DNA of 60,107 nucleotides from a virus, in the IMG/VR virus record IMGVR_UViG_3300005613_000072, positions 1 through 60,107 of that record, one strand, 5' to 3'. Positions 6,020 through 60,107 of the stretch are shown here, piece by piece. The notes under the pieces are model-generated. The model saw only the letters and a program-made list of their open reading frames with translations, was not told the DNA's origin and did no database searches. Position numbers and translations under genes: made by a program. Numbering within the stretch: position 1 is the stretch's first letter; each line of letters begins with the position of its first letter.

Positions 6020-9000
6020 CCCCGTACACCCGCCATTCGTTTTTCCCAGGCCATTCTATCGGTAAGTTCCTTCATAATTTTATTGGATAGGGTTGACTCG
6101 TTTATTCCTGTGCCATTAATTTGAATAGCCCCTTGTTCAACTACAATATCTATGTTACTTGATGTTTGTTGAGACGTTGGTGCTGCCGTTGTTGTACCGG
6201 GTATATTTGACATTGCCATCTTTAGTTTGTCTGCAACATCATTAAACCCTGCGGAAAAAGCTCTTCTTAATATGCTTTCAAAGTCACCAGAAGTTAGTCC
6301 TTCAGTTACTTGTTGCCCTAAACCGCGTAGGGTAGAAGAATCTTCAAAAATTTTCCAGTAAGGGTATATCGGTATCTCGTTTGTCTTACCAACGGCGTCG
6401 TCAGTTACTTGTTGCCCTAAACCGCGTAGTAGGGTAGCAGAATCTTCAAAAATTTTCCAGTAAGGGTATATCGGTATCTCGTTTGTCTTACCAACGGCGT
6501 CGTCAGTTCCACCAGCCTTATCCTGTGAATCAAGCAATTCTTTAATTTTCCAGTAAGGGTATATCGGTATCTCGTTTGTCTTACCAACGGCGTCGTCAGT
6601 TCCGCCTGACTCAGGTTCTACCCTACCATCTGATCTAACTATAGTTTCTAAAACACCGCGAATACCACGTACACCATCAGCAATATCTCCTGTATTTACA
6701 GACGTTTCTTCTTCAATTTTTATGCTTCTGGCAGCGGATTCAGCTTCTTTTTGATTTGTACTACCGCTACTACTTTGACTATTATTTTGTGTTGATCCCC
6801 TTAGAAGACTTATTATCTGATCTAATTTACCATTTGTAGTATTAAATTCAGTAGATATCGTATCTTTTACCGCTATTGTATCTTGAGATATTTTAGACGT
6901 AGATTGAGCAATATCACTAAAGTAATCAGCAGACTCTTTGTAATATTCTTCGGCGCCCTTTAATGTGTCAAGAGCTTCTTCTTGATATTTTTTTGCCTCT
7001 TCAGCAGCTTTTGCAACCTCTTCTTTAGCTTCTGTAAGCTGTTCCCTAAGTATAGTGAGTTGAACATCGATACCTTCAGTTAATTGAGCTATCATAACAT
7101 CTCTATCCGGGTCAGTAACATTAATTTCCGTAGATAGGGATTCTAATATCTGTTCCAAGTATTCTTTAGATTGTTCTGCAACGGTCTTATCATCTTCGTG
7201 GAAACCAACACCTTGATCAATTAAATCTTGGACGTAAGCAAGTAGTTCTTCTGTAGACATATCGGAAAAATCTACGCCACTACCGGCTCCAAAATCATCA
7301 AGATTTGATAATTCACCAGTTAAGGCTTCTAAGGCTTTTTTTAGATCGGCAGCACCGCTAAGATTACCCTGATTAACAAGTTCTGTTAACACTTGATTAA
7401 TTTGTTGATAGGTAGAATCACTTATAGAACCTTCTGCCGACATTTCTTCTTTGATAGTGTTAATAAGATCGCTGTATTCCCCTGTACCTTGTAAAATTGC
7501 TATGACACTATCAAAGCCGCCTTGCACAATATCATCTATCTTAGGTTTATCTTCTGGTTTTGCAAAATCATAGATTGCTTCACTTACTTCGTTAAGTCCT
7601 TCGCCAATTTGTTCATCAGATTCTTCGTATAGGAAATGGAAGTCCGGCGTAAAATTAGGGTTAGAAATTTGTTCCATTGTCCATAAAATATCATTTACAC
7701 CGTCACTTGTAGAACCTACTGCCATTCCAAGCATTTTCATTACATCTGATAACATCTGTCCAGCTAAGTCTACGGTTTCCATTAAACCGTCAGTCATTAA
7801 AGCAACCATATCTAATTCGCCAGAAGTGATCATGCCATCTTCTAAAGAATCTACAATGAATTTACCAATAGCCATTACTTTGTCTTTTATAAGCGCTGAT
7901 TCTAAAACCGCTTCTATTAATCCATTAACAATCGCACTTTTTACATTTTCTTTTATTTCTGTGTGTAGTACTTCCCAAGCCTTACTTTCGCCAAGATCAA
8001 CTAAATTTTTAGTGAAATTATCAAACGCCCCAGCTAATACATCACTTATAGAATCAGCCCAATCCGCTATTGCGTCTTCATAAGCTTTTAATGCGGCTTG
8101 TTCTGCTTCCATATTTTCAATTGCTTGTTGTAATGCACCATAAGCATCTACTAAATTTTGAAGTTGATCATCATATTCATCTAACCACTGGATATTAGGA
8201 TCATCGTTTTCAAGCAAGTACTGTTTCATGTCATATAGTTCTTCGATAGCACTTTCTAAAGCCGAAAGTTTATCCTTCATTGCAGAAAGATCGTCATCAC
8301 CAACAATTGCAGACATAAAATCTATCTTATCAAACTCAGCTTGTAACCTATCGAAAATCTTACGGACTTCTTCTGTCATAATCATTTGGATATACTGCAT
8401 CGCTTTTTGTATCATGTCTTGCACTGTCTTTATGTACTGCTGTAATTTACTTATTCCTTGCTGGTAAATTTCTGTTCCAACAATGATGTCACTATCTCCA
8501 GCCTGATACGTAGCAAACGTAGCTTCACTTGATTCGGCTAAAAGTTCATTCCAGTCTGTTATTTGTTCTTTTATTTTTTCAATAGCTTCTTCTGCACGTT
8601 CTAAGTAGTCGTAGTAATAGTCAATTGCAGCTTTCCAGCCGTCTGGTGGTTCAAAAGCACCCAGCAATTCTGCGGGATGTAAACTTTCAAGTATGCCCTC
8701 AACTTCTTCTTTGACACGTTTCCATTCTGCAATATACCAATCAACATATTCTATCACTCTTTTTTTCTGATCTTCAAGATCAGCTATCTGAGCTTCGATT
8801 TTAGCTACTTTATCCAACGCTTTTTGTAATCTTAGCAATTGATGTTCAGTTTCCCTAATTGCGTCTTGTAACTTAGCAAAGAATTGTGTATTAGGATCAG
8901 CTGTAGCTAATAACTTGCGGAATCTGTCTAAAGCACTACTAAGTGCCGTAATCATAGCTTGGCCAACAGAAGATACATTAGCCACAGTTTCTTTTAGACC

Positions 9001-47576: not shown

Positions 47577-48767
47577 ATGTTATCTAAACCCAAACTTTTT
47601 GTAATGTCGTTGCAACATTTGTTAGCAATGTTTGGCGCAACTGTGCTTGTACCGGTACTGGTAGGGATTCCGCCTTCCGTGGCGTTGTTTACGTCCGGTG
47701 TAGGAACCTTAATTTTCCATTGGTGTACAAAATTCAAGGTACCGGCTTACCTTGGTAGCTCTTTTGCGTATATTGCACCAATTATTACAGTAACATCTTA
47801 CTACGCGGCTAACGGAAATAACGTTGATGCTATTGCGTATGCAACCGGTGGTATTCTTTTAGCGGGTTTTGTAAAAATGCTCTTTGCCTACTTGATGTAT
47901 AAAATTGGCATCGAAAAAATTACAAAAGTTTTTACGCCGGTTATTACGGGAACCATGATTGTACTAATAGGGTTGATCTTAGCTCCTGTGGCGGTAGATA
48001 TGGCAGCCACGAACTGGCTACTGGCTGCAGCCACAATCTTAATGGTTATTGTCACTAAAAGCTTTGGTAAAGGTTTTATTAAGCTACTTCCAATTATTGT
48101 TGGAGCTCTTTCTGGATATTTGTTAGCTTTGGCTATTGGTGAAGTTAGTTTTGAATTTACAAGTTTTATTAGCATTCCTAAGTTTGTTTTGCCGAAATTT
48201 TCTTGGTTTGCTATTAGCGTAGTAGTGCCAGCAGCTATTGCACCGGCAATTGAACATATTGGTGATATTTTTGTTATATCGGAAACAGCAGAAAAACCTT
48301 TCTATAAAGACCCGGGTATGCACAGAACGCTTCTTGGGGATGGATTAGCCACTTCTTTTGCCGGATTACTTGGCGGCCCCGCTAATACAACCTACTCGGA
48401 GAATACTGGGGTAATGGCTCTAACTAAAGTTTATGATCCAGTCATTATGCGAGTTGCCGCGATTTTTGCTATTATCTTATCTTTTTTCCCGCCCGTAGAA
48501 GCGCTTATCATGAGTATTCCACAGTCTGTAATGGGCGGTATTAGTATCTTTTTGTTTGGTATGATTGCTTCTATTGGTATGAAAGTACTGGTCCATAATA
48601 AGGTTAAATTCACAGACAAAAACTTGATTATCATGTCTTTAATGTTGATTTCTGGACTTGGTGGAGCCGCTTTTTCTTACGGAGAATTTATCTTGCAAGG
48701 ATTGGGGTTAGCTGCTGTTATAGGGGTACTTCTACAGTTAGTCTTGCCTAACAACAAGGAAGTATAA
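47577..48767 (+). CDS. NCS2 uracil/xanthine permease, UraA-like (396 aa)
   Basis: An inner-membrane protein with about 12-14 hydrophobic segments. It starts MLSKPKLFVMSLQHLLAMFGA, the NCS2 QH motif, and carries PAIEHIGDIFVISETAEKPF and AGLLGGPANTTYSENTGVMALT, the uracil-permease helix regions with the substrate-contacting E residues. It imports uracil or a related base with protons. Upstream has CGGAGG. Such transporters are very unusual in phages; nucleobase salvage to feed the large dTTP need is a reasonable role. Confidence 0.93.
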   Translation: MLSKPKLFVMSLQHLLAMFGATVLVPVLVGIPPSVALFTSGVGTLIFHWCTKFKVPAYLGSSFAYIAPIITVTSYYAANGNNVDAIAYATGGILLAGFVKMLFAYLMYKIGIEKITKVFTPVITGTMIVLIGLILAPVAVDMAATNWLLAAATILMVIVTKSFGKGFIKLLPIIVGALSGYLLALAIGEVSFEFTSFISIPKFVLPKFSWFAISVVVPAAIAPAIEHIGDIFVISETAEKPFYKDPGMHRTLLGDGLATSFAGLLGGPANTTYSENTGVMALTKVYDPVIMRVAAIFAIILSFFPPVEALIMSIPQSVMGGISIFLFGMIASIGMKVLVHNKVKFTDKNLIIMSLMLISGLGGAAFSYGEFILQGLGLAAVIGVLLQLVLPNNKEV

Positions 48768-48792
48768 CCCTACTTGAGGGGGAAAATTATAG

Positions 48793-49512
48793 ATGTTTAG
48801 TCAGATAGTTTCTTTTAGTGGCGGTAAAGATAGTACCGCCATGCTTCTTATGATGCTGGAAAAAGGGATGCAGGTAGACGAAATAATTTTCGTTGATACA
48901 ACAAAAGAATTTCCGGAAATTTATAGGAATATCACTAAAGTAGAAGCCTACATTGGTAGAAAAGTCACTAAAGTAGCTATTGATTTTGATTACTGGTTTA
49001 AGGATATTGATCATAAATCTAAAGATCGCAACGGATATGGCTGGCCAACACCAAAAAATAGATGGTGTACAGGACGTAAACGAGGTGCTTTTAATCAAGC
49101 TGCTAAGGGACGAAAGTATGATTCACATACTCAAAATCGTACTACACCACCACGAAGAGCCGATATCTACTTGGGAATTGCTGCAGATGAACCACGTAGA
49201 ATAAGAGACATTAAAAATACCCACTACCCATTAGCGGAATGGGGAATTACTGAAGCACAAGCACTACAGTACTGCTATGACCATGGATTTGACTTTGAAG
49301 GTGCTTACGAACACTTTCGTTCATTATCTTGCTATTTATGCCCTTTTCACACATTAGACCAAACAGAAGCGGTTTATAATTACTACCCTGAACAATGGAA
49401 AGATATGCTTCGTTTAGACGATTACGCACACAACCTATACAAAAATAAGTATCGCATCGCAGACTTGCCGGCTATATTTGAACAACGCAGGCTAAAAAAG
49501 AAGGTGGAATAA
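48793..49512 (+). CDS. PP-loop (PAPS reductase-like) protein (239 aa)
   Basis: The N-terminus has the PP-loop SFSGGKDSTAMLLMML. RWCTGRKRGAFNQA and FRSLSCYLCPFHTLDQ supply cysteines that could bind metal or a cluster. The family includes PAPS reductases and DndC-type sulfur-transfer ATPases. In phages such proteins adjoin methyltransferases. A sulfur or nucleotide modification role is possible but not proven. It overlaps the FAD protein start by 1 base. Confidence 0.82.
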   Translation: MFSQIVSFSGGKDSTAMLLMMLEKGMQVDEIIFVDTTKEFPEIYRNITKVEAYIGRKVTKVAIDFDYWFKDIDHKSKDRNGYGWPTPKNRWCTGRKRGAFNQAAKGRKYDSHTQNRTTPPRRADIYLGIAADEPRRIRDIKNTHYPLAEWGITEAQALQYCYDHGFDFEGAYEHFRSLSCYLCPFHTLDQTEAVYNYYPEQWKDMLRLDDYAHNLYKNKYRIADLPAIFEQRRLKKKVE

Positions 49513-50705
49513 TGGAAATTGCAATTATCGGCGGCGGAACTGCCGGTATTACCTTAGCGTATCTACTAAAAGATTGTTATAATATCTGTATTTTTGAGCG
49601 TGGTAAGGACCCATATCATAGGGAACCCGATTATGGCTTTGGTGGCTCCGGAACTTTTTCCGACGGAAAACTTACCCTATCTAAAGAAGTTGGGGGACAA
49701 CTCGGTGGAATTCTGCCCAACGATAAGTATGTAGAATACGAAACAAAGGCTCTTAACTTCTGGCTTGGAAATAGGGATATTAGGGATTTTGAATTTGGCA
49801 AATATACCGCAGATCAAAATAAATTGCGCAGGGAATTATTAGCCCACAACTATCGTCTAATAGAAGCAGGGTTTATCCATCTTGGCACAGAAACTATGCA
49901 GGCACGTGCAAAAGAGCTATACGAAGAATTAGTAAGTCATCCACGTGTTACTATTATGCTGGAACAACCCGTGGAAGACATTGAAGCTATTGCGAAAAAT
50001 TTTGATCTGACTGTTATTGCTACGGGTAGAACTGGTTACATAGCGTTAGAAAATTTTTTGCGCAAAAAAAGACTTAAGTACTTAGACAATATAGTAGATG
50101 TAGGTATTCGCTACGAAGTAAAAAACGAAGTTGTAGAACATCTGACTAAGACGCTATATGAATTTAAGATCACCCGGAATAATGTTAGAACATTTTGCGT
50201 CAATCCAAGTGGCTTTGTTGTAGAAGAAAATGGGTTGGCTAATGGGCATAGTTTTTTAAGCACGAAAAGTGATTTCACAAATTTTGCTGTATTATACAAA
50301 TACATAACTAAGAATGCGTCTAAATTTGCAGATAAACTAAAGTCACATTTTAATGGTGTCAAAGTAATGCCTTATGGAAAATTTTGCGGGAAAAAAGATA
50401 TTTTACCTAATGGAAGAACTTACCTTAATGCCAAAGAAGAAGATTTTGTAAGTTTAATACCGGAAACCGTAGTAACACAACTAACAGACTTTATTAATGG
50501 ATTAGAACCTATAATCCCAGGCATTGCAAACGATACTAATAATGTATATGCCCCGGAAATTAAAACAAATTCCATAGTACCACAGATGTTAGAGTTATTT
50601 AAGTTAGTAGATAATACCTATATTATCGGCGATATTACAGGCTATACACGGGGTATCATGCAAGCAACTATTTCCGCATTTTACTTAGCGGACAAGCTTA
50701 TTTAG
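49512..50705 (+). CDS. FAD-dependent oxidoreductase, COG2509-like (397 aa)
   Basis: An N-terminal Rossmann motif, IGGGTAGITLAYLL, is followed by the characteristic GGSGTFSDGKLT. The C-terminus has TYIIGDITGYTRGIMQATIS, the FAD-binding G-D-x-T-G motif of this family of uncharacterised flavoproteins. It is coupled with the PP-loop gene. The substrate is unknown. An enzyme pair with sulfur-type chemistry is suggested by the order. Confidence 0.85.
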   Translation: MEIAIIGGGTAGITLAYLLKDCYNICIFERGKDPYHREPDYGFGGSGTFSDGKLTLSKEVGGQLGGILPNDKYVEYETKALNFWLGNRDIRDFEFGKYTADQNKLRRELLAHNYRLIEAGFIHLGTETMQARAKELYEELVSHPRVTIMLEQPVEDIEAIAKNFDLTVIATGRTGYIALENFLRKKRLKYLDNIVDVGIRYEVKNEVVEHLTKTLYEFKITRNNVRTFCVNPSGFVVEENGLANGHSFLSTKSDFTNFAVLYKYITKNASKFADKLKSHFNGVKVMPYGKFCGKKDILPNGRTYLNAKEEDFVSLIPETVVTQLTDFINGLEPIIPGIANDTNNVYAPEIKTNSIVPQMLELFKLVDNTYIIGDITGYTRGIMQATISAFYLADKLI

Positions 50706-50926: not shown

Positions 50927-51924
50927 GGGTAAGTTATGGAAAATATTATCGAACAATTACTGGAAAGTACTGGAAAACTAACAACCCGCAAAAAAGGTGT
51001 ATTGGCGGAAAAGTATGTTGTCTCACCTTTTTCTATACTATACACTCGTGACGGTAGCTGGCAAAGCAGAAAAAAAGCATGGCTTAGCTTAGGATTACGA
51101 AGCGAACTTGGAAGGGATAAGGCATTAACATACCCACAAATAGAAAATCGCACTGATTTTGTAGGCGAAGCTATCAAAGCAAAGGGCGGTACAAGCGTAT
51201 TTGATCCGGTACTAACAGAATGTTTATACCGCTGGTTTACGGGCACTAATTACCAAGTTATTGATCCTTTTGCCGGTGGGTCTGTGCGTGGGATTATAGC
51301 GGGTTTAATGGGAAGAAAATACTGGGGATGCGACCTAAGCCAAAAGCAAATCAGTGCAAATAAACAACAAGCAGAAAGTATTATTATAAAAAGGAATGAG
51401 CCTAAGTTTCATGTTCCAGTATGGATTACAGGAGATAGTTTAACCGAAATGTATACAGCACCACAAGCAGATTTTATATTAACTTGCCCACCGTATGGCC
51501 AGTTAGAAAAATATAGTGATGACCCGCGAGATTTATCAAATATGGATTATAATACATTTATAGACGTTTACGGGAAAATAATTTCCATAAGCATTGAAAA
51601 ACTGAAAGATAATAGATTTTGCGCAATTGTTGTTGGAAATTTCCGTAATAAATTAGGTTTCTACGAGGATTTTGTTGGGGATACAGTACGCATATTTCAA
51701 AAAGAGGGCGCGAAATTATACAATGATGCTATATTAGTAAATCAGATAGGCACTGGTGCTATAAGGGCTTCGAGTCACTTTGACCCGGGACGTAAACTTG
51801 TAAAAATGCACCAAAATGTACTGGTATTCTGTAAAGGTGATTGGCGACAAGCCACGCAAGAGTTAAAAACTGGAGGCGTATTATGATTATGCAAAAAACT
51901 TTTTTGCCAAAAAAAGGTAATTTA
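50870..51924 (+). repeat. 33-bp imperfect direct repeats bracketing a methyltransferase gene
   Basis: AAAAAACTTTTTTGCC followed by AAAAAAAGGTA(G/A)TTTA occurs at 50870-50902 and 51892-51924 (about 31 of 33 identical). The first is the end of the 70-aa gene; the second starts a 31-codon remnant frame. The gene between is a complete DNA methyltransferase. Confidence 0.9.
50936..51886 (+). CDS. DNA methyltransferase with CPPY motif (316 aa)
   Basis: Motif I DPFAGGSVRGIIAGL (AdoMet binding) and catalytic motif IV LTCPPYGQLEKY define an N4-cytosine or N6-adenine methylase. The order (X region, I, IV) and the 'dPFaGs' form are of the beta/gamma type. AAGGGTAAG precedes the ATG. It is bracketed by 33-bp imperfect direct repeats (50870-50902, 51892-51924). 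It likely protects DNA from host restriction; the target site cannot be read from sequence. Confidence 0.88.
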   Translation: MENIIEQLLESTGKLTTRKKGVLAEKYVVSPFSILYTRDGSWQSRKKAWLSLGLRSELGRDKALTYPQIENRTDFVGEAIKAKGGTSVFDPVLTECLYRWFTGTNYQVIDPFAGGSVRGIIAGLMGRKYWGCDLSQKQISANKQQAESIIIKRNEPKFHVPVWITGDSLTEMYTAPQADFILTCPPYGQLEKYSDDPRDLSNMDYNTFIDVYGKIISISIEKLKDNRFCAIVVGNFRNKLGFYEDFVGDTVRIFQKEGAKLYNDAILVNQIGTGAIRASSHFDPGRKLVKMHQNVLVFCKGDWRQATQELKTGGVL

Positions 51925-51978
51925 AATACCCCTGAAATTAAACAAAACAGTCAGGAGTTAAAAAATGCCGAAAATTAA
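51883..51978 (+). CDS. Short remnant frame (31 aa) duplicating KTFLPKKG
   Basis: It begins at ATGATTATG overlapping the previous stop and reads MIMQKTFLPKKGNL..., the same phrase that ends the 70-aa protein at 50714. It overlaps the next methyltransferase start. It is most likely the end of a duplicated gene left by insertion of the methyltransferase, rather than a functional protein. Confidence 0.35.
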   Translation: MIMQKTFLPKKGNLNTPEIKQNSQELKNAEN

Positions 51979-52582
51979 ATTGATACAAGGTGATTGTTTG
52001 GAAAAAATGAAAGATATTCCTGATAAAAGTGTGGATTTGGTACTCACTGATCCTCCCTATGGTATAGGATTAAAATATAACACATACCAAGACACAGAAG
52101 AAAATTGGTATAATTTAATGACTAATGCACTACCAGAAATTAAACGAATAAGTAAAATGGCAATACTGCCTTCCTGTAAAATACATAGAATGAAGTGGAT
52201 TTACGATAATTTCCCCCCAGATTGGTTAATTTGTTGGTATAAGGGGTCTACTGGGCACGCTTCTTTTATTGGGTTTAATGACTGGGAACCTCATTTAGTT
52301 TATGGAAGACGTCTAAACAATCAATATATGCATGATTATTTTCAAACAAAACCAAGTCCAAAAAAAGGTGAATTTAATCACCCCTGTCCCAAGCCTTTAG
52401 AATGGGCGGAATGGCTAATTACCAGAGTTGCGCGTAAAGATACAATAACAGTTTGTGATCCATTTATGGGGAGCGGGACCGTTGGTGTTGTATCTAAAAA
52501 ACTTAACCACAATTTTATTGGAATAGAACTTGATCCAGAATACTTTAAAGTTGCAGAGAAACGAATAAATGAAAATATATAA
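51965..52582 (+). CDS. DNA methyltransferase with DPPY motif (205 aa)
   Basis: Motif IV TDPPYGIG and motif I CDPFMGSGTVGVV near the C-terminus give the beta-class order (IV before I), as in many small phage N6-adenine/N4-cytosine methylases. At 205 residues it is short, lacking a large target-recognition domain. AGGAGT precedes ATG 51965. It is adjacent to two further methylases. Confidence 0.88.
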   Translation: MPKIKLIQGDCLEKMKDIPDKSVDLVLTDPPYGIGLKYNTYQDTEENWYNLMTNALPEIKRISKMAILPSCKIHRMKWIYDNFPPDWLICWYKGSTGHASFIGFNDWEPHLVYGRRLNNQYMHDYFQTKPSPKKGEFNHPCPKPLEWAEWLITRVARKDTITVCDPFMGSGTVGVVSKKLNHNFIGIELDPEYFKVAEKRINENI

Positions 52583-52605
52583 AACTACAGAGGAGTTAAA
52601 ATATC

Positions 52606-53667
52606 ATGAATGTGTTAAGCTTATTTGATGGTATGTCATGTGGTCAAATTGCGCTTGAAAGATCGGGGATCAAAGTTGAAAATTACTTTGCTTCTGAGAT
52701 TGATAAATATACTATACAAGTAACTAAACACAATTACCCAAACACAAAACATATAGGGGATGTAACAAAGGTTAAAGGTACCGATTTACCCAAAATAGAT
52801 TTATTAATAGGCGGGAGTCCGTGCCAAGGATTTAGTTTTGCGGGTAAACAGTTAAACTTTGAGGACCCAAGAAGCAAATTGTTTTTTGACTTTGTAAGAT
52901 TACTGCAAGAAACAAAACCTAAATATTTTTTACTCGAAAATGTGGTGATGAAACAAGAATATCAAGATATAATAAGTCAACATTTAGGTATTAAGCCCAT
53001 TTTAATAAATAGTAGTTTAGTTTCTGCCCAAAATAGAAAACGCCTTTACTGGACTAACATACCAAATATAACCAAACCACAGGATAAAGGTATAACCTGG
53101 GGCGATGTTAGAGAGTATGGCGTAAATACTGAGAGCTATTACTATACAGATAAAGCAATGCAGTGGTTAGCGAGAGTAAGCCAAAAGAAAAACAAACCTT
53201 TAACTGTACATTCTAACAACGATAAGATGCAGATGCTTGAAGCAAGTCATTATAAAAAATATAGTAATCAACGGTTTTTTGGGATTGTGGATTTGCCAGA
53301 AAATAAACAAGCAGTTGCGGGAATGAGAGGGCGTTATTTAATTAATGGTAAAGCGCAGATTGGAAAACAAAGTTTAAAAGGACTAACAAAGCAATACATT
53401 GAGTTTAAATACGACGGAAAAACTAATGCTCTAACTACTGTCGCAAAAGATAATGTAGTAGTACCTTTTACTTTACCAAATAGAGTACCTGCCGATGAAT
53501 TTTTCTTTCGTTATTTAACGCCTTTAGAATGTGAAAGATTACAAACAGTGCCGGATAACTATACAGTTTGTGTAAGTAATACGCAAAGATACCGAATGCT
53601 GGGCAATGGATGGACTGTCGATGTGATTGCACATATCTTTAAGGGATTGTTAAAGGATGTATTGTAA
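52606..53667 (+). CDS. DNA cytosine-5 methyltransferase (353 aa)
   Basis: The C5-methylase motifs are present: I SLFDGMSCGQIALERSG, IV GGSPCQGFSFAG (catalytic Cys in PCQ), VI LENV, VIII AQNRKRLYW, and X RYRMLGNGWTVDVIAHIF. The variable segment of about 140 residues between VIII and IX is the target-recognition part. TAGGGG-type DNMT3-like N-terminus MNVLSLFDGMSCGQ is common in phage methylases. GAGGAG precedes the ATG. The target sequence is unknown. Confidence 0.93.
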   Translation: MNVLSLFDGMSCGQIALERSGIKVENYFASEIDKYTIQVTKHNYPNTKHIGDVTKVKGTDLPKIDLLIGGSPCQGFSFAGKQLNFEDPRSKLFFDFVRLLQETKPKYFLLENVVMKQEYQDIISQHLGIKPILINSSLVSAQNRKRLYWTNIPNITKPQDKGITWGDVREYGVNTESYYYTDKAMQWLARVSQKKNKPLTVHSNNDKMQMLEASHYKKYSNQRFFGIVDLPENKQAVAGMRGRYLINGKAQIGKQSLKGLTKQYIEFKYDGKTNALTTVAKDNVVVPFTLPNRVPADEFFFRYLTPLECERLQTVPDNYTVCVSNTQRYRMLGNGWTVDVIAHIFKGLLKDVL

Positions 53668-53808
53668 AAATGGCGCAGATTAAACCAGAGGAATAAAAAT
53701 GCGATGGCGTAGAATAGTAAATCAATTTTAAAGTCATTCTCAGGTCTGTAGCGATGTTTTACCGCACTTTTGTGTGTGCTTAACAAAGATAAATTAACGG
53801 AGGATATC

Positions 53809-54324
53809 ATGACTAAACTAAAAACATACCTAAAGAAAAAGTATTTTAGATCAATGGCAAATTTGTTAGTTAAAGGAACTAAAGTATTAAGTACCCACGA
53901 AATAAATGATATTTGGACTAACTTTGAACAAGAAATTAACCAAGCGGCAAAAACTTTTCGTTTTGAAGCGAACACAAAGAGCCAAATAGAGCATCTATTA
54001 GATTTGGTAATTAGCAATATGTACATAATGGGTGAATTTCCAGCCGCATGTAAAGTAAATATAAATCCCAAACACTATGCTTACATTAAAGAAGAATACT
54101 TTGATGCATTCCTAAAAAAGTTAGAGCATTCCCTAAATATAAAATATCCCTACTATAGTTTTAGGGTAATTGTAACCGGTGGTAACTACAGCGTAGAATG
54201 CGAAGATTTTGGCGTTGACATGGAAAAACAAGTTCAAGAAACAATTGATAATCTTGTAGAGCGAAGTCTATTGAAGAGCTTACGCAGACACTTGGAGGTA
54301 CCGGATGTTATACCAGAAGATTAA
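53809..54324 (+). CDS. Unknown protein (171 aa)
   Basis: I chose ATG 53809 (MTKLKTYLKKKYFRSMANLL) because ACGGAGG is 6 bases before it. The protein is helical at first and mixed later (YPYYSFRVIVTGGNYSVECEDFG). Its 141-base upstream gap has no clear feature apart from a short non-coding stretch after the C5 methylase. It overlaps the dehydrogenase start by 20 bases. Function unknown. Confidence 0.75.
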   Translation: MTKLKTYLKKKYFRSMANLLVKGTKVLSTHEINDIWTNFEQEINQAAKTFRFEANTKSQIEHLLDLVISNMYIMGEFPAACKVNINPKHYAYIKEEYFDAFLKKLEHSLNIKYPYYSFRVIVTGGNYSVECEDFGVDMEKQVQETIDNLVERSLLKSLRRHLEVPDVIPED

Positions 54325-55564
54325 AGACAAAACCGCAAAAATTGGTGTTATAGGATTAGGTTACGTAGGTTTACCGTTAGCTGTTGAAAAGGCTAAAGCG
54401 GGTTTTGAAGTGGTAGGATTTGATATTCAAGGGCAAAAAGTTTGGCAAATTAACCGCGGCGAGAATTATATCGGTGATATTGTTAGTGAGGACTTAAAAG
54501 AATTAGTTAAGACTAACAAGCTACGTGCGACTACACGTATGAATCAACTTGAAGACTGTGATATTATGACTATCTGTGTACCAACACCTTTAGACAAATA
54601 CAAGCAGCCCGATCTAACCCATGTTATAAACGTAACAAATGAAGTCGCTAAGTATCTATATGCAGACAACTTAGTTATTTTAGAGTCTACAACCTATCCG
54701 GGAACTACAGAAGATGTAATCAAGCCTATCTTAGAGACGAAATCTTGGTTTACTTGCGGGAAAGACTTCTACTTAGCTTTTAGCCCGGAGCGCGTAGACC
54801 CGGGAAATAATATTTACAAAACAAAAAACACTCCTAAAGTAGTTGGTGGTGTAGGCTATAAGTCAGCGGAGCTTGCACAATTGCTGTATGAAGCTGTATT
54901 AGAAGCCCCGGTAAAAGTTGTTTCGTCACCAAGAGCAGCTGAAATGACAAAAATCTTAGAAAATTCCTATCGATTAGTAAACATATCCCTAATCAACGAG
55001 CTAACCATGCTTGCAGATAAGATGGGAATTAATATCTGGGAAGTAATTGATGCTGCAGCTACCAAACCATTTGGATTCACGCCATTTTACCCCGGTGCCG
55101 GTGCCGGTGGACACTGTATCCCTATCGATCCATTCTACCTATCATATATCGCCAAAAAATTTGATTCTACAACCACCCTAATAAACCTTGCGGGCGAAAT
55201 AAATGATCAGATGCCAAACTATATTGTACAAAGAATTGCAGATATTCTTAACACAAGGGAAAAACCACTAAAAAACACCAAGATACTATTAGTTGGTGCT
55301 ACCTATAAAGGTGATATCGACGATATACGCGAATCCCCGGCATTAAAAGTAGCAGAAATTCTCCAAGAAAAAGGCTGTCAATTAGATATTTATGATCCAT
55401 ACATACAAAAATTCGCGGCAAAAAAAGACTACAACTTATATGATCTAACAGTAATAACAACAGCACACAAACACAATATAGATTACCAAGAACTACAAAA
55501 AAACTCCAAACTTATCTTTGACACAAAAAACATATTACAAGGAGGCAATGTAATAAAACTATGA
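54305..55564 (+). CDS. UDP-N-acetyl-hexosamine 6-dehydrogenase, WecC/WbpA-like (419 aa)
   Basis: The NAD fold has IGVIGLGYVGLPLAVEKAKAG (GxGYVGLP), CVPTPLDKYKQPDLTHV is the family signature, AFSPERVDPGN the substrate site, and GAGAGGHCIPIDPFYLSY contains the catalytic Cys. Two dehydrogenation steps make a UDP-uronic acid. It likely supplies sugar for the glycosyltransferase or surface glycans. GGAGG precedes ATG 54305. The last 250 bases change to A/C-ending codons. Confidence 0.92.
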   Translation: MLYQKIKDKTAKIGVIGLGYVGLPLAVEKAKAGFEVVGFDIQGQKVWQINRGENYIGDIVSEDLKELVKTNKLRATTRMNQLEDCDIMTICVPTPLDKYKQPDLTHVINVTNEVAKYLYADNLVILESTTYPGTTEDVIKPILETKSWFTCGKDFYLAFSPERVDPGNNIYKTKNTPKVVGGVGYKSAELAQLLYEAVLEAPVKVVSSPRAAEMTKILENSYRLVNISLINELTMLADKMGINIWEVIDAAATKPFGFTPFYPGAGAGGHCIPIDPFYLSYIAKKFDSTTTLINLAGEINDQMPNYIVQRIADILNTREKPLKNTKILLVGATYKGDIDDIRESPALKVAEILQEKGCQLDIYDPYIQKFAAKKDYNLYDLTVITTAHKHNIDYQELQKNSKLIFDTKNILQGGNVIKL

Positions 55565-56136
55565 AAACAGAACAATACTGGGAACAACGCTATGCAAGAG
55601 GAGGAAATTCCGGTGATGGTTCATATGGTGACTTAGCGCTATTCAAAGCACAAGTAATTAATGACTACATAAAAAAGCTAAACATCGTATCCATGAACGA
55701 CTGGGGATTCGGCGACTGCAACCAGCTACAATACTTCCCCGATATCGACTACGTAGGCTACGAAGTAAGCCAAACAGCAATAAAAAACGCGCAAAAAAGA
55801 TACCCAAATAAAATTTTTCGCCAAATAAAAGAATACTCAAATCAAAAAAAAGAACTATCAATATCATTAGATGTACTATACCACCTAATAGAAAACGAAC
55901 TATACTATGAATACCTAAACAACCTATTTAACTCAGCAACAAGATTAGTAATAATCTACTCTTCAAACTACCAAGAACAACCAAAAGGACATCAATACAG
56001 AAGAAACTTCACCCCGGACATAGAAAAACTACACCCGGAATGGCAACTAACAGAAACAATACTAAACAAATACCCATACAAACTAACAACCGGAAAAGGA
56101 TCACACTGTAACTTCTACATCTACCAACCAAAATAA
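55561..56136 (+). CDS. SAM-dependent methyltransferase-like protein (191 aa)
   Basis: ATGA overlap with the dehydrogenase. The N-terminus EQYWEQRYARGGNSGDGSYGDLALFKAQV is typical of class I methyltransferases found in glycan clusters; the glycine loop is degenerate (NDWGFGDCNQ), VSQTAIKNAQKRYPN and ISLDVLYHLIENELYYEYL match motifs II-IV. It probably modifies a sugar or small molecule. Its codons end almost only in A or C, unlike earlier genes. Confidence 0.75.
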   Translation: MKTEQYWEQRYARGGNSGDGSYGDLALFKAQVINDYIKKLNIVSMNDWGFGDCNQLQYFPDIDYVGYEVSQTAIKNAQKRYPNKIFRQIKEYSNQKKELSISLDVLYHLIENELYYEYLNNLFNSATRLVIIYSSNYQEQPKGHQYRRNFTPDIEKLHPEWQLTETILNKYPYKLTTGKGSHCNFYIYQPK

Positions 56137-56140
56137 TTTT

Positions 56141-56172
56141 TTCGCGCAAAAAAAGAGGTAATAATATGATAA
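56141..56172 (+). repeat. Direct repeat (left) flanking a methyltransferase gene
   Basis: TTCGCGCAAAAAAAGAGGTA, continuing ATAATATGATAA, recurs in near-identical form at 57344-57373 (CGCGAAAAAAAGAGGTAAT, then ACTATGATAA) and partly at 57612-57630. The repeat contains the ribosome binding site and start codon of both following genes. Confidence 0.85.
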
Positions 56173-57338
56173 ATATTAATCTAATACAAGGTAACTGTTT
56201 AGAAAAACTAAAAAATATTCCTAATGAAAGTATAGAAGCTATTGTATGTGATCCCCCATATGAGCTAAACTTGATGAATAAAAAATGGGACAATACGGGA
56301 ATTGCATATAATATAGATTTATGGAAAGAATGTTTTAGGGTACTAAAGCCAGGAGGACATTTAACAGCTTTCGGGGGCACAAGAACTTATCACAGAATGG
56401 CTGTAGCTATTGAAGACGCTGGATTTGAAGTAAGAGATATGTTAGAGTGGATATATGCAAGCGGATTCCCAAAAAATTTAGATGTAGGCAAGGCAGTAGA
56501 TAAGCTGTGTGGTAACGAAAGAACGAATTTAGGCGCTGTACGCGGCTGTGGAAATAATAATACAGAATCAATGAATAACGGCGTAAAAAAATCAAGTGAG
56601 TTTAAGCCTACATACACTTTAACTAAAGGCTCTTCTGAATGGGAAGGTTTTGGTACGGCTCTTAAACCAGCCCATGAACCAATCATCCTTTGTAGAAAAC
56701 CTTTATCAGAGAAAAATATCGCAAAAAATGTACTAAAACATGGAACAGGTGCAATTGACATTGACGGATGTAGAATACCGACAAATGACTTAACACCAAG
56801 AAACAACAGGGAATCTGCAACATGGGGGACTTATGGTAATGGGTATGCTGCACCTTCCCCACACGGCCGTTTTCCAGCCAATATTATCTGTACAGATGAT
56901 GCTTTAAATGACCACGGAAGTACAGTAGAATCAAAATCCCGTTACTTTGACATAGATGTCTGGGCAGAAAAACACGGGCTACTCCAATTCCCAAAAGCAA
57001 GTAAAAAAGAAAGAAACGAAGGGTGTGATGGATTAGAAAAGAAAAATCTTGCAGGAAGTAATAAATGGACAGACGTTGACTATAGAAAAGGGGACGGAAA
57101 AATTACAGCACAACCACAACACAACCACCATCCAACAGTCAAACCAATTCATCTTATATCCTGGCTTATAAGACTAATCAGCAAAAAAGGCGGCACAGTT
57201 TTAGATCCATTTATGGGTTCAGGAACAACAGGTGTTGCTTGTGCAAATCTTGATCGTAATTTCGTTGGTATCGAACTTAATGCCGATTATTTCAAAATTG
57301 CAGAAAAACGAATAAACGCAGCCCGTTTAGACACATAA
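56166..57338 (+). CDS. DNA methyltransferase with DPPY motif (390 aa)
   Basis: Motif IV CDPPYELNLMNKKWDN and motif I LDPFMGSGTTGVACANL (C-terminal) again give the beta order. WIYASGFPKNLDVGKAVD and KPAHEPIILCRKPL are hallmark segments of phage N6A/N4C methylases. Codon use is ordinary, in contrast to the two A/C-biased genes on either side. AAGAGG precedes the ATG. It looks like a recent insertion between them. Confidence 0.92.
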   Translation: MININLIQGNCLEKLKNIPNESIEAIVCDPPYELNLMNKKWDNTGIAYNIDLWKECFRVLKPGGHLTAFGGTRTYHRMAVAIEDAGFEVRDMLEWIYASGFPKNLDVGKAVDKLCGNERTNLGAVRGCGNNNTESMNNGVKKSSEFKPTYTLTKGSSEWEGFGTALKPAHEPIILCRKPLSEKNIAKNVLKHGTGAIDIDGCRIPTNDLTPRNNRESATWGTYGNGYAAPSPHGRFPANIICTDDALNDHGSTVESKSRYFDIDVWAEKHGLLQFPKASKKERNEGCDGLEKKNLAGSNKWTDVDYRKGDGKITAQPQHNHHPTVKPIHLISWLIRLISKKGGTVLDPFMGSGTTGVACANLDRNFVGIELNADYFKIAEKRINAARLDT

Positions 57339-57778: not shown

Positions 57779-57802
57779 CCTCCCCGGCGCCAGACCCCGA
57801 AT

Positions 57803-57960
57803 GTTACATCGATGTTACCCCCCGGTTACGGGAATGTAACACCCCCGAATGTTACCGGAAGGTTACAATGTGTGATGCTAAAGTAACAATCTGTGTTGTT
57901 ACCTGCAGGTTACAATGTGTGGCGATAAAGTAACACTCTGTGTTGTTACCGGAAGGTTAC
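57803..57960. repeat. GTTAC iteron array with 11-bp phasing and 47-bp tandem repeat
   Basis: GTTAC occurs at 57803, 57814, 57825, 57851, 57862, 57898, 57909, 57945 and 57956; GTAAC at 57836, 57883 and 57930. The first four sites are 11 bp apart; later pairs are also 11 bp apart. From 57861 the region is a 47-bp tandem repeat beginning GGTTACAATGTGTG. The 11-bp phase puts sites on one face of the helix, as in operators or origin iterons. No gene overlaps. Confidence 0.9.
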
Positions 57961-57990
57961 CACCACCACACATTTGGTAGATCTCACACT

Positions 57991-58049
57991 TGATATATCG
58001 GAGGCCGATATATCATGCCTCGGTATATCGACCTCCGATATAGCCAGGC
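57991..58049. promoter_or_regulatory. Two consecutive palindromes built on GATATATCGG
   Basis: TGATATATCGG and CCGATATATCA (57991-58001, 58005-58015) form a perfect 11-bp stem with a 3-base loop. The next segment, 58017-58049, pairs 12 of 14 positions around TATATCG/CGATATA. Neither is followed by a T tract in either direction, so operator or cruciform sites are more likely than terminators. Confidence 0.8.
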
Positions 58050-58060
58050 AAAAAAAATAT

Positions 58061-58129
58061 GGACATGGAACAAAAAAAGATCCATGTCCACTCGACGTTT
58101 TATAAAAAGTTGAGTGGGACATGGAACAA
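58061..58129. repeat. Stem-loop element A and duplicated arm
   Basis: ATGTCCACTC (58084) and GAGTGGGACAT (58112) flank an 18-bp core GACGTTTTATAAAAAGTT (58094-58111). An extra copy of GGACATGGAACAA lies at 58061, giving two mutually exclusive hairpins (58061-58089 or 58081-58125). Element B at 59641 has the same arms and tail with the core inverted. Confidence 0.85.
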
Positions 58130-58163
58130 AAAAAACCCCTCCCCAAAAATTGGGGAGGGGTTT
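58071..58163 (-). terminator. Strong double Rho-independent terminator of the minus-strand operon
   Basis: AAACCCCTCCCCAA pairs with TTGGGGAGGGGTTT (14 bp, loop 58147-58149); on the minus strand it is followed by TTTTTTTTGTT (58132-58124 approx). The next hairpin (58125-58081) is followed by TCTTTTTTTG. Both tails read in the minus direction only, so the unit ends transcripts coming from the right. Confidence 0.9.
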
Positions 58164-59149
58164 ACTGCTATGACTGCCTATTTCCATTGGCAGTCATAGC
58201 ACAGAGGCTTGTTGCTTAACCTTGATACCACGTGCCCACAGATCGGGCACATGGTATCCGCCTGGACCCACTTCGGAGGGAAGGACCATGCCTTCCCCCA
58301 ACAGGACGTTGGGTCATCGACCCAACCGTCCCTCGATGTAAAGCTATAGTGGTCCCTGTGTTCAAACCCCAGGTACCTTAACCAGGCATATAATCCAAGC
58401 ATGGGTCGGTATTTTCCCGACCCACCATACGTCGGCAGGACAAATAATCCGTCCTGCCCTCCGAGAATCAAGCAGCGTGCAAACTTGATTCCCGACTCTC
58501 GGACCGAAGCCACGACGTAGGCTTCGGTCCCTATGTAGGAAGCCAGGGTCCGCGTGTAGGACCCCGACCAGGACATACAGCTTGTGTACTCCGACGCTTC
58601 CGAAGCTGCTAAAATAGCAGCAACGGAAGCGGTTACAACGGTTTCAAGTCGGAGCTCCTGGACGTCCGCCAGGAGCTCTCCGTCAAGAGTCGCTCCCGGA
58701 GGCATTAAAGCAGCCTCCGCGCGACTTGTCTTCATCCCACGTGGAAATTTCCTTCCCACGTGAAAATAATCTTTCTCCAGGACGCCCGTTTTCCATGCTT
58801 CCATGGAAAAGGACGTCGTCCACTTAACCGTGAACTCCTGCTCTTTGAATCGAGCAGGAATTATTCCACGGGCAGGTAAAAACCTGCCCGTGGAGTGGAA
58901 TTTCTCGAACTCCGGTAGAACACGGAGTCCGAAGCCGAAGTAATCTTCGAAGGCGTCCAAAGACGCCTTCTCCAGGGATCTGACTGGATTGGACGTCAAG
59001 ACTCGACGTCTTCCAGATCCCTTGCAAACCGGACTTCCCGGTTTGGCAAACCTTCCTCATCCCTTTTTTCAAGCGCCTTGTCGATGTTCCAGGCGCTGTA
59101 TAGCTTGTACTTCCATGCTACCTTCGGAGAGAGTAAAATAATCTCTCCG
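58133..59149 (-). other. Hairpin-saturated message covering two coding regions
   Basis: Over about 1,000 bases nearly every stretch folds into a local hairpin. Clear examples: 58167-58178 with 58189-58200 (12 bp), 58224-58237 with 58245-58258, 58501-58511 with 58520-58530, 58595-58631, 58652-58678, 58789-58797 with 58802-58810 (9 bp), 58866-58877 with 58882-58893 (12 bp), 58949-58957 with 58962-58970, 59072-59097, 59125-59149. I count at least 20. Single stem mismatches are mostly A-C on the plus strand (e.g. 58231/58251, 58277/58298, 58541/58569, 58543/58567, 58545/58565, 58745/58755, 58835/58860, 58908/58929) and become G-U on the minus strand. Confidence 0.85.
58178..58999 (-). CDS. Unknown protein with C-terminal zinc ribbon (273 aa)
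   Basis: The frame starts at TTG 58999 inside a TTGA overlap with the upstream stop. Residues about 138-200 (SCMSWSGSYTRTLASYIG..., KFARCLILGG...FVLPTYGGSGKYRPML) resemble a phage family in which an SCM segment precedes strands and a short arm. The C-terminus MCPICGHVVSRLSNKPLCYDC has the CxxC-CxxC zinc pattern. GC content is higher than elsewhere. A real protein is likely, but its reading frame runs through the hairpin array, so translation and RNA structure share the same bases. Function unknown. Confidence 0.65.
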   Translation of the reverse strand: MTSNPVRSLEKASLDAFEDYFGFGLRVLPEFEKFHSTGRFLPARGIIPARFKEQEFTVKWTTSFSMEAWKTGVLEKDYFHVGRKFPRGMKTSRAEAALMPPGATLDGELLADVQELRLETVVTASVAAILAASEASEYTSCMSWSGSYTRTLASYIGTEAYVVASVRESGIKFARCLILGGQDGLFVLPTYGGSGKYRPMLGLYAWLRYLGFEHRDHYSFTSRDGWVDDPTSCWGKAWSFPPKWVQADTMCPICGHVVSRLSNKPLCYDCQWK

Positions 59150-59184
59150 TCCGTCATCAGTACATAGCGGTAATTTGGCTTCAT
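58996..59184 (-). CDS. Small unknown protein (62 aa)
   Basis: I prefer ATG 59184 (MKPNYRYVLMTDGEIILLSPKV), with AAGGGA 11 bases upstream; the in-frame TTG 59214 would add ten basic residues. It has two beta strands and a helix (WKYKLYSAWNIDKALEKRDEE). Its stop overlaps the start of the 273-aa gene, so coupling or a -1 fusion of both frames is possible. Hairpins 59072-59097 and 59125-59149 lie within it. Confidence 0.6.
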   Translation of the reverse strand: MKPNYRYVLMTDGEIILLSPKVAWKYKLYSAWNIDKALEKRDEEGLPNREVRFARDLEDVES

Positions 59185-59241
59185 TTCTTTCAGTCCCTTT
59201 TTTTTGATAGTCAAGCCGATTCAAATGCGCTTGAATAACGC

Positions 59242-59271
59242 ATTTTAGCAGCTTGCCTATTCAATTGTCAA
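59242..59271 (-). promoter_or_regulatory. Promoter of the hairpin-rich operon
   Basis: Minus strand TTGACA (59271-59266), 18-bp spacer, TAAAAT (59247-59242). It is 28 bases upstream of the TTG start and 58 bases upstream of the ATG start of the first gene. It lacks the extended TGG seen in other window promoters. Confidence 0.75.
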
Positions 59272-59283
59272 TGATCGATCGAG

Positions 59284-59406: not shown

Positions 59407-59610
59407 TCAAATTTTATATTGTAACGCGCTATAGAAGCGGGTTTCCGGGGTTTTTTGGGTTATTTCCAAATTCTGTGTTTGGCTTTTCATGCGGGTTTCC
59501 GGGGTTTGCCGATTCAATTCATAAAATCTTTCTATGCCAAAAATTCTTTTTTTGGTATGGAAAACACGTGTAACCTGCTATAGCAGCGCGTTTCCGGCTA
59601 TTCCCTTCCA

Positions 59611-59738
59611 CTGGTGCTGCTGGTGCTGCTGGTGCTGCTGATGTCCACTCAACTTTTTATAAAACGTCGAGTGGAACATGGAACAAGTGCTGCTGGTGCT
59701 GCTGGTGCTGCTGGTGCTGCTGGTGCTGCTGGTGCTAT
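59611..59738 (+). repeat. (GTGCTGCTG)n tandem repeat interrupted by element B
   Basis: About three units occupy 59611-59640 and five to six occupy 59687-59738. The 46-bp element B lies exactly between them. The repeat is too short and unlinked to any start codon to count as a gene. Confidence 0.95.
59641..59686 (+). repeat. Stem-loop element B (core inverted relative to element A)
   Basis: ATGTCCACTC, core AACTTTTTATAAAACGTC, then GAGTGGAACATGGAACAA. Arms and tail match element A in the same orientation (one substitution), while the 18-bp core is the exact reverse complement of the core of A. Confidence 0.92.
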
Positions 59739-59846
59739 GAATTATACAATACTAACACGCTATAATCCGCTATAGAAGCGTGTTTCCGGGGTATTGAACA
59801 AAAACGCTTGAATTGACGTCTAATGTATGCCCAAAAATACAAGTTG

Positions 59847-59911
59847 ATACGAAAACCGTATCATTTGGCAGTCCAATGCAAGGACTGCTAAAAATAATAC
59901 GGTTTTCGTAT
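59847..59911. other. 65-bp two-level cruciform
   Basis: ATACGAAAACCGTAT (59847-59861) and ATACGGTTTTCGTAT (59897-59911) form a perfect 15-bp outer stem. GCAGTCC/GGACTGC (59868-59874, 59882-59888) forms an inner 7-bp stem, with unpaired A/T-rich flanks of 6-8 bases between. It is not followed by a T run, so it is not a normal terminator. A protein site or structured RNA is likely. Confidence 0.9.
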
Positions 59912-59964: not shown

Positions 59965-59987
59965 ATTGCAACACACCATTCATATTT

Positions 59988-60107
59988 CCAGAATGTTTCC
60001 ATTTGTGCCTTTTTCACTCCGGTTTTTTTCCGGATTGTAAAATTCTACGCATTTTTGGTAACGTTGCCAGAATGTTTCCATTTGTGCCTTTTTCACTCCG
60101 GTTTTTT
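59988..60107 (+). repeat. 41-bp direct repeat at the right edge
   Basis: CCAGAATGTTTCCATTTGTG (then CCTTTTTCACTCCGGTTTTTT) occurs at 59988-60028 and 60067-60107, a period of 79 bp. The second copy runs to the last base, so more copies may continue outside the window. No gene is visible between them. Confidence 0.95.

Follow-up and report, generated by a model that had tools for sequence, protein, structure and literature searches.

In the single-stranded RNA (ssRNA) phages of the Leviviricetes, such as MS2 and Qbeta, coding RNA is structured well beyond synonymous shuffles, and the start of the replicase gene is hidden in structure until translation of the upstream coat gene opens it. Here, we describe a message that shares the first of these properties and is predicted to share the second, but that is encoded in DNA, by a double-stranded DNA (dsDNA) phage. 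It lies at the right end of a single contig of 60,107 bases, IMG/VR record IMGVR_UViG_3300005613_000072, which was the whole sample and is called the window below. On the minus strand, about 1.1 kb of hairpins between a promoter-like site and a terminator also contain two overlapping open reading frames (ORFs) of 62 and 273 amino acids (aa), and the longer ORF is the most densely hairpinned in a survey of 6,735.

Large, highly structured RNAs of similar length include GOLLD, ROOL, and OLE, of which GOLLD and ROOL are phage-encoded (PMC12286853). Those RNAs are non-coding, and GOLLD and ROOL often lie near tRNA islands, whereas the message described here codes almost throughout; the sole tRNA of the window is ~11.5 kb from it. 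Rfam covariance models run over the whole window at the gathering threshold returned nothing but a tRNA, and a permissive search (E up to 5) found no ornate RNA. Therefore, the message is not GOLLD, ROOL, or OLE, which settles a comparison that the initial annotation of this DNA had called for.

Obelisks (PMC13096302) resemble the message in being ~1 kb long and about two thirds paired, with one main protein frame. However, they are apparently circular RNA replicons that form a single long rod, whereas here short-range hairpins are encoded in DNA between a promoter and a terminator. Neither protein of the unit has a significant family match to a Leviviricetes replicase, coat, or maturation protein (in PDB, for the 273-aa protein only); the 273-aa protein has no match in Pfam, NCBIfam, or PDB, and its structural model is too poor for comparison with the Oblin-1 fold of Obelisks. 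Going by the tests run, the phage message belongs neither with the GOLLD and ROOL RNAs nor with the leviviruses or Obelisks.

Designed "superfolder" mRNAs (PMC8499941, PMC10499610, PMC8940940) are the nearest in kind; in both cases, synonymous choice raises pairing and the protein is kept. The designed molecules are man-made for stability, whereas the phage message would be natural and consists of short hairpins. Genome-scale ordered RNA structure (GORS) in persistent RNA viruses (PMC3950689) is likewise a pervasive structure of coding RNA, associated there with host-defense interactions, although it concerns vertebrate RNA viruses and not a single dsDNA-phage locus. A limited literature search of partial coverage found no natural, DNA-encoded counterpart.

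Excess structure in the message

The transcript from 59240 to 58133 folds at -550 kcal/mol, and the 1,170-nt message as far as the second terminator folds at -576 kcal/mol. About two thirds of the unit is paired, 62% of the pairs in the predicted fold have a probability of >0.9, and the longest unpaired run in the message is 15 nt. When the span of pairs is limited to ≤70 nt, 93% of the fold energy is retained. The initial annotation had counted at least 20 consecutive stems, and our recount, by a criterion symmetric for G-U and A-C, gives 27 stems of score ≥6 (248 Watson-Crick, 11 G-U, 1 A-C, and 2 other pairs). Of the hairpins with 6 bp or more, 19 reach a mean pair probability of >0.9. Gap-free stems of score ≥8 number 16 in the 1,108-nt unit, compared with a mean of 0.46 and a maximum of 3 in 26 equal-sized pieces elsewhere in the window. 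Likewise, among 300 segments of 200 nt taken from both strands of the contig, the lowest fold z-scores (-13, -12, and -11) belong to the hairpin unit, against a median of -0.2 to -0.4.

Codon-preserving shuffles locate this excess. The 273-aa ORF has a fold energy of -426.5, compared with a mean of -311 (standard deviation [SD], 9.6) for 200 synonymous shuffles, giving z = -12.0; when the shuffles also keep dinucleotides, z = -10.7. Well-defined pairs (probability >0.9) make up 56% in this ORF versus 28% in shuffles. The 62-aa ORF, with z = -2.3, is mildly structured, and therefore the dense packing concerns mainly the 273-aa ORF and the terminator end. An earlier description of the whole unit as hairpins packed end to end thus stands for that part; the 62-aa ORF departs from it, and the enrichment continues, more weakly, into the flanks. 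Synonymous shuffles of the 273-aa ORF reach -312 and codon-order shuffles -293 (SD, 8 to 10; 8 for codon-order); about 2.4 SD of pairing potential resides in the order of amino acids, and the bulk of the excess comes from synonymous choice. The stems have no clear bias in codon register (counts of 9, 9, and 5). Avoidance of restriction or RNase motifs was considered as a driver and rejected, as a k-mer analysis gave no strong signal.

The likeness to ssRNA phage coding RNA suggested in the initial annotation becomes sharper when measured. Against in-frame coding segments of equal length from MS2 and Qbeta (MS2_rep2, which is out of frame, was left out), the 273-aa ORF has an excess stability over base shuffles of 46% versus 25 to 37%, and its synonymous-shuffle z-score of -12.0 compares with -6.6 to -9.5. 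The stem fraction is 0.38 in the phage message versus 0.07 to 0.15 in the MS2 and Qbeta segments. The same paired fraction is reached by different means, namely, imperfect helices in the ssRNA phages and short, perfect, local hairpins in this message.

Such density is also rare among phage genes. In a survey of 2.6 million bases of loci, mostly from phage relatives and partly overlapping, the median stem fraction per 600-nt piece is 0.027, compared with 0.40 in the hairpin unit. Ranked first of the 6,735 ORFs of at least 100 aa (mostly from related phages), the 273-aa ORF scores 0.404 and the runners-up 0.298 and 0.269; an extra 0.35 Mb yielded nothing exceeding 0.26. The next densest regions were rejected as parallels, one (L164:1501) being a non-coding hairpin array of a GC-rich phage and the other (L200:1801) a product of chance from A+T richness. 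The former array, at L164:1740-2073 (IMG/VR 3300043313_001951, ~15.7 to 16.1 kb), holds ~9 perfect or near-perfect hairpins of 8 to 14 bp with loops of mostly three bases; several share the linker AGTTGCTAATGG, and each has a distinct sequence.

One explanation of so much structure is that the folded RNA itself acts, either by titrating a host RNA-binding or defense protein (a decoy or sponge) or as a scaffold or particle, as proposed for GOLLD and ROOL. A structure this well defined, beyond that of the tested ssRNA phage segments, and an amino acid order slightly adapted to pairing are both consistent with such a dual function. However, the hairpins have no loop motif in common, nor is there a strong k-mer signal for a specific binder to read, and the message is a plain string of hairpins without the junctions and pseudoknots of an ornate RNA or an Rfam match. 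We consider this explanation unlikely.

Two coding frames in one unit

From promoter to terminators, the unit contains the following features.

59242 to 59271, minus strand: promoter-like site TTGACA-18-TAAAAT, its -10 element preceded by TG (11 of 12 matches)
58996 to 59184, minus strand: 62-aa ORF whose ribosome-binding region is open and A-rich (AAAAAAAAGGGACTGAAAGAAATG), from ORF translation, pairing probabilities, and an AlphaFold2 model
58992 to 59010, minus strand: hairpin holding the TTG start of the 273-aa ORF within an 8-bp stem (pair probability, 0.95)
58178 to 58999, minus strand: 273-aa ORF with a TTG start, a C-terminal CPxCG...CxxC zinc ribbon, and the densest hairpins
58865 to 58894, minus strand: longest perfect in-frame hairpin, 13 bp, with the loop TTTT
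58224 to 58258, minus strand: 14- to 15-bp hairpin encoding the zinc knuckle MCPICGHVV
58166 to 58201, minus strand: hairpin of 13 Watson-Crick pairs plus an extension, in which the 273-aa ORF has its final codons and stop
58133 to 58163, minus strand: intrinsic terminator, a perfect 14-bp stem followed by T8, ~15 nt beyond the stop of the 273-aa ORF
58084 to 58129, minus strand: further hairpin with a T run after it, forming the second terminator, read from the sequence

The promoter and the double terminator that the initial annotation had placed around the hairpins are both present. The promoter-like site is the top match within 4.1 kb, in a scan where promoter-like sites overall are no commoner than expected by chance. 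An A-rich leader lies 3' of it, and AAGGGA precedes the ATG of the 62-aa ORF, whose TGA stop shares letters with the TTG start of the 273-aa ORF in a TTGA overlap. The two genes are probably transcribed together, starting at this promoter and ending at the terminator. The zinc ribbon that ends the second protein reads CPICGH...CYDC, and the zinc knuckle is encoded inside a 14- to 15-bp stem (58258-58224), so that protein and stem share the same letters. The hairpin of the second terminator is a 46-nt palindromic element with an 89% identical copy at 59641 to 59686, 1.56 kb upstream, within a GTGCTGCTG repeat array.

The coding status of the longer frame was examined with shuffles that permute base pairs within the paired positions and single bases within the unpaired ones, keeping both structure and composition. 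An open frame of at least 273 codons arose in 2 of 20,000. The observed frame displays codon-position periodicity (P = 0.0014) and the usual excess of G1 over G2 (P = 0.003), and its amino acid composition, the best of the six frames, is weakly protein-like (log-likelihood ratio, 0.007 per residue). Given the frame length and periodicity, together with a zinc ribbon, a TTGA overlap, and ORFs that fit the space from promoter to terminator, both ORFs are taken as coding, as initially suggested, and the 273-codon frame looks truly coding. The weak points of this call are the weakly protein-like composition and the lack of a homologue in the searches. These same points, together with a single-sequence model of very low confidence, would suit a large structured RNA that does not code, its 273-codon frame having arisen by accident. 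That alternative has to contend with the rarity of such a frame among the shuffles, with both codon-position statistics, with the CPxCG...CxxC motif, and with a frame that overlaps a credible upstream ORF and fills the unit to the terminator; it strikes us as very improbable.

Neither protein has revealed a relative. Searches for the 273-aa protein found none in IMG/VR, GTDB genomes, INPHARED, PLSDB, or 49 related phage records and no match in 249 genomes belonging to one order or 103 belonging to one phylum, while the 62-aa protein had no relative in IMG/VR, INPHARED, or the genomes of the same order; the order and phylum are possible hosts, guessed from the closest relatives of a single phage gene, and the genome searches are thus weak negatives. 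At the nucleotide level, the DNA of the unit had no match in phages, flank plus unit had none in plasmids, and the exact hairpins had none in IMG/VR. Family searches (Pfam, PHROGs, NCBIfam, PADLOC, and PDB) returned solely a sub-threshold zinc ribbon (E = 0.25). A single-sequence AlphaFold2 model of the 62-aa protein (mean predicted local distance difference test score [pLDDT], 75) has a beta-beta-alpha-alpha-beta arrangement, for which a fold search gave no match.

Either protein might also bind the hairpins of its own message, thereby controlling translation or packing the message. The 273-aa protein is slightly basic (isoelectric point, 8.1) and carries a zinc ribbon, and a second start that is hidden in a hairpin and coupled to the first ORF follows the principle by which ssRNA phages couple replicase to coat translation. 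However, one operator hairpin would suffice for autoregulation, leaving ~20 hairpins of unrelated sequence unexplained unless binding is purely by shape, and the structure prediction for the 273-aa protein (pLDDT, 31) is uninformative. We would place little weight on this possibility, slightly less than on the DNA-level explanation discussed next.

RNA or DNA as the selected form

In the codon-preserving shuffles, the antisense strand of the 273-aa ORF is almost as unusual (z = -11.5) as the message. Because the stems are perfect, both strands fold nearly equally well, and therefore fold energy cannot choose between RNA and DNA. The imperfect pairs are more telling. In the message sense, the unit has 11 G-U versus 1 A-C pairs, a stronger bias than the nine against three initially counted, whereas the rest of the window has 277 versus 335. 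After composition is taken into account (base-shuffled messages predict 53% G-U), the bias has P = 0.006. As G-U pairs hold only in the message, selection on RNA is the simplest reading, and RNA, not DNA, is likely the selected form, in agreement with the strand favored in the initial annotation. The G-U sites gave no signal of protein constraint, 5 of the 11 being silently repairable.

An origin in the DNA or in mutation would make the right-arm end a palindrome-rich region (a replication origin, a recombination or hairpin-binding site, or the product of template-switch repair of quasi-palindromes) in which the gene lies by chance. The antisense z-score fits this idea, as do stem-rich non-coding flanks at 57.8 to 58.1 and 59.3 to 60.1 kb and the non-coding array of perfect hairpins in another phage (L164). 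Yet the 11:1 asymmetry within the unit speaks against it, stems are densest in the coding frame (0.42 of bases, versus 0.14 to 0.26 in the flanks, terminator apart), and template switching, if repeated, would probably have disrupted the reading frame. We judge a DNA-level cause improbable. Counted in the message sense, G-U:A-C is 11:2 in the left flank and 3:5 in the right.

The flanks have repeats of their own. To the left lie 47-nt tandem repeats made of GTTAC palindromes (57795-57973) and, after them, a 19-bp inverted repeat composed of GATATATCGGAGG units (57994-58042), with the G-U:A-C ratio of 11:2. To the right, a 33-nt element (GCTATAGAAGCGGGTTTCCGGGGT) occurs in four copies in non-coding DNA upstream of the promoter (59422-59795), and a 20-bp hairpin of ATACGAAAACCGTATCATTT (59847-59911) has a 25-nt loop that contains an inner hairpin (GGCAGTCC/GGACTGCT).

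A proposed armored message with a coupled second gene

Our best explanation, which we hold tentatively, is a natural "armored," nuclease-resistant message in which translation of the first gene opens the second. The coding sequence would have been shaped, mainly at synonymous sites and slightly in amino acids, into ~20 short, mostly perfect hairpins, such that no single-stranded stretch longer than ~15 nt would be left to single-strand RNases, whether host decay enzymes or defense-activated ribonucleases. Stems of 7 to 15 bp are too short for efficient cutting by RNase III, and those of the message would accordingly be poor substrates. Given short unpaired runs and short stems, protection from single-strand RNases is the best-supported mechanism. 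In designed mRNAs, added structure has been reported to prolong mRNA life (PMC10499610, PMC8499941).

Around the start of the 62-aa ORF, the message is open (mean pairing probability, 0.32), whereas the surroundings of the 273-aa ORF start are paired (0.74), and therefore coupled translation of the 273-aa protein is predicted. Ribosomes would load near the 5' end, where the message is open, and translate the 62-aa ORF; when they stop at its TGA, they would unfold the hairpin concealing the overlapping TTG start, and the zinc-ribbon protein would be made mainly through this coupling. The coding frames, the excess of structure, and the message-strand bias are computed, and the sequestered second start belongs to a predicted structure; that the unit is transcribed, that translation is coupled in cells, and that the message resists nucleases to the benefit of the phage are inferred.

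Several observations weigh against an armored message. Five other phage genes in the window have synonymous-shuffle z-scores of 0.1, -1.3, -1.3, -0.2, and -2.9 and are not armored, so that a general threat from RNases would leave the armoring of this gene alone to be explained. The flanking non-coding DNA is more palindrome-rich than the rest of the phage, which an explanation by mRNA alone does not need. The G-U excess could stem in part from C-to-T change on the non-template strand. Finally, no homologue of the protein or the RNA that could show covariation, or joint conservation of protein and structure, turned up in the collections searched.

Genomic setting

The contig carries the gene set of a tailed phage (terminase, portal, major head protein, DnaB helicase, primase, and RecA), along with ribonucleotide reductase, thymidylate synthase, a beta clamp, and several DNA methyltransferases. 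Its terminase shares ~30 to 35% identity with the terminases of Streptomyces phage BRock, Bacteroides phage BS162P1, and numerous uncultured phages, and one match in the terminase search is a fragment with 98% identity. The genes neighboring the hairpin unit run the opposite way, and G+C is 48 to 54% in its two ORFs versus ~37% across the phage. A promoter-like site and terminator of its own, deviant G+C, and opposed orientation are the layout of an acquired independent cassette, or "moron."

Adjoining the unit, four clustered DNA methyltransferase-like genes (three amino-methyltransferase-like and one C5-methyltransferase) occupy 50936 to 57338. Before them, at 47577 to 50705, are consecutive genes for a xanthine/uracil-type permease, a 3'-phosphoadenosine-5'-phosphosulfate (PAPS)-reductase-like protein, and a flavin adenine dinucleotide (FAD)-oxidoreductase-like protein, which are unusual auxiliary metabolic genes for a phage. 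A 102-nt tandem repeat of 3.1 copies (6302-6601) lies within the gene of a 3,383-aa protein. Thermophily was considered and set aside, as the T-stem of the tRNA is A+T-rich and gives no thermophile sign. The contig ends inside a direct repeat (59985-60107; 44 nt, 98% identical, spacing of 79), and therefore the assembly probably broke there, with the genome continuing beyond.

What the message may mean

The first observation, a transcription unit dense with hairpins that also codes for two proteins, is confirmed, and its first interpretation is partly supported. Novelty rests on the measured anatomy; function is inferred. With a confidence not far short of even, we propose that this is a natural counterpart of the engineered superfolder mRNA, in which selection on the RNA fold governs a whole coding region, and possibly the first of a class of armored or bifunctional coding RNAs missed by gene and RNA finders. 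Coding and folding normally compete. If the proposal is true, evolution can optimize a message as a structure beyond the ssRNA phages, in a DNA genome, with a zinc-ribbon protein kept. Structure as a shield of phage messages from RNA-cutting defenses would then become directly testable, and codon-preserving fold scans can find such elements.
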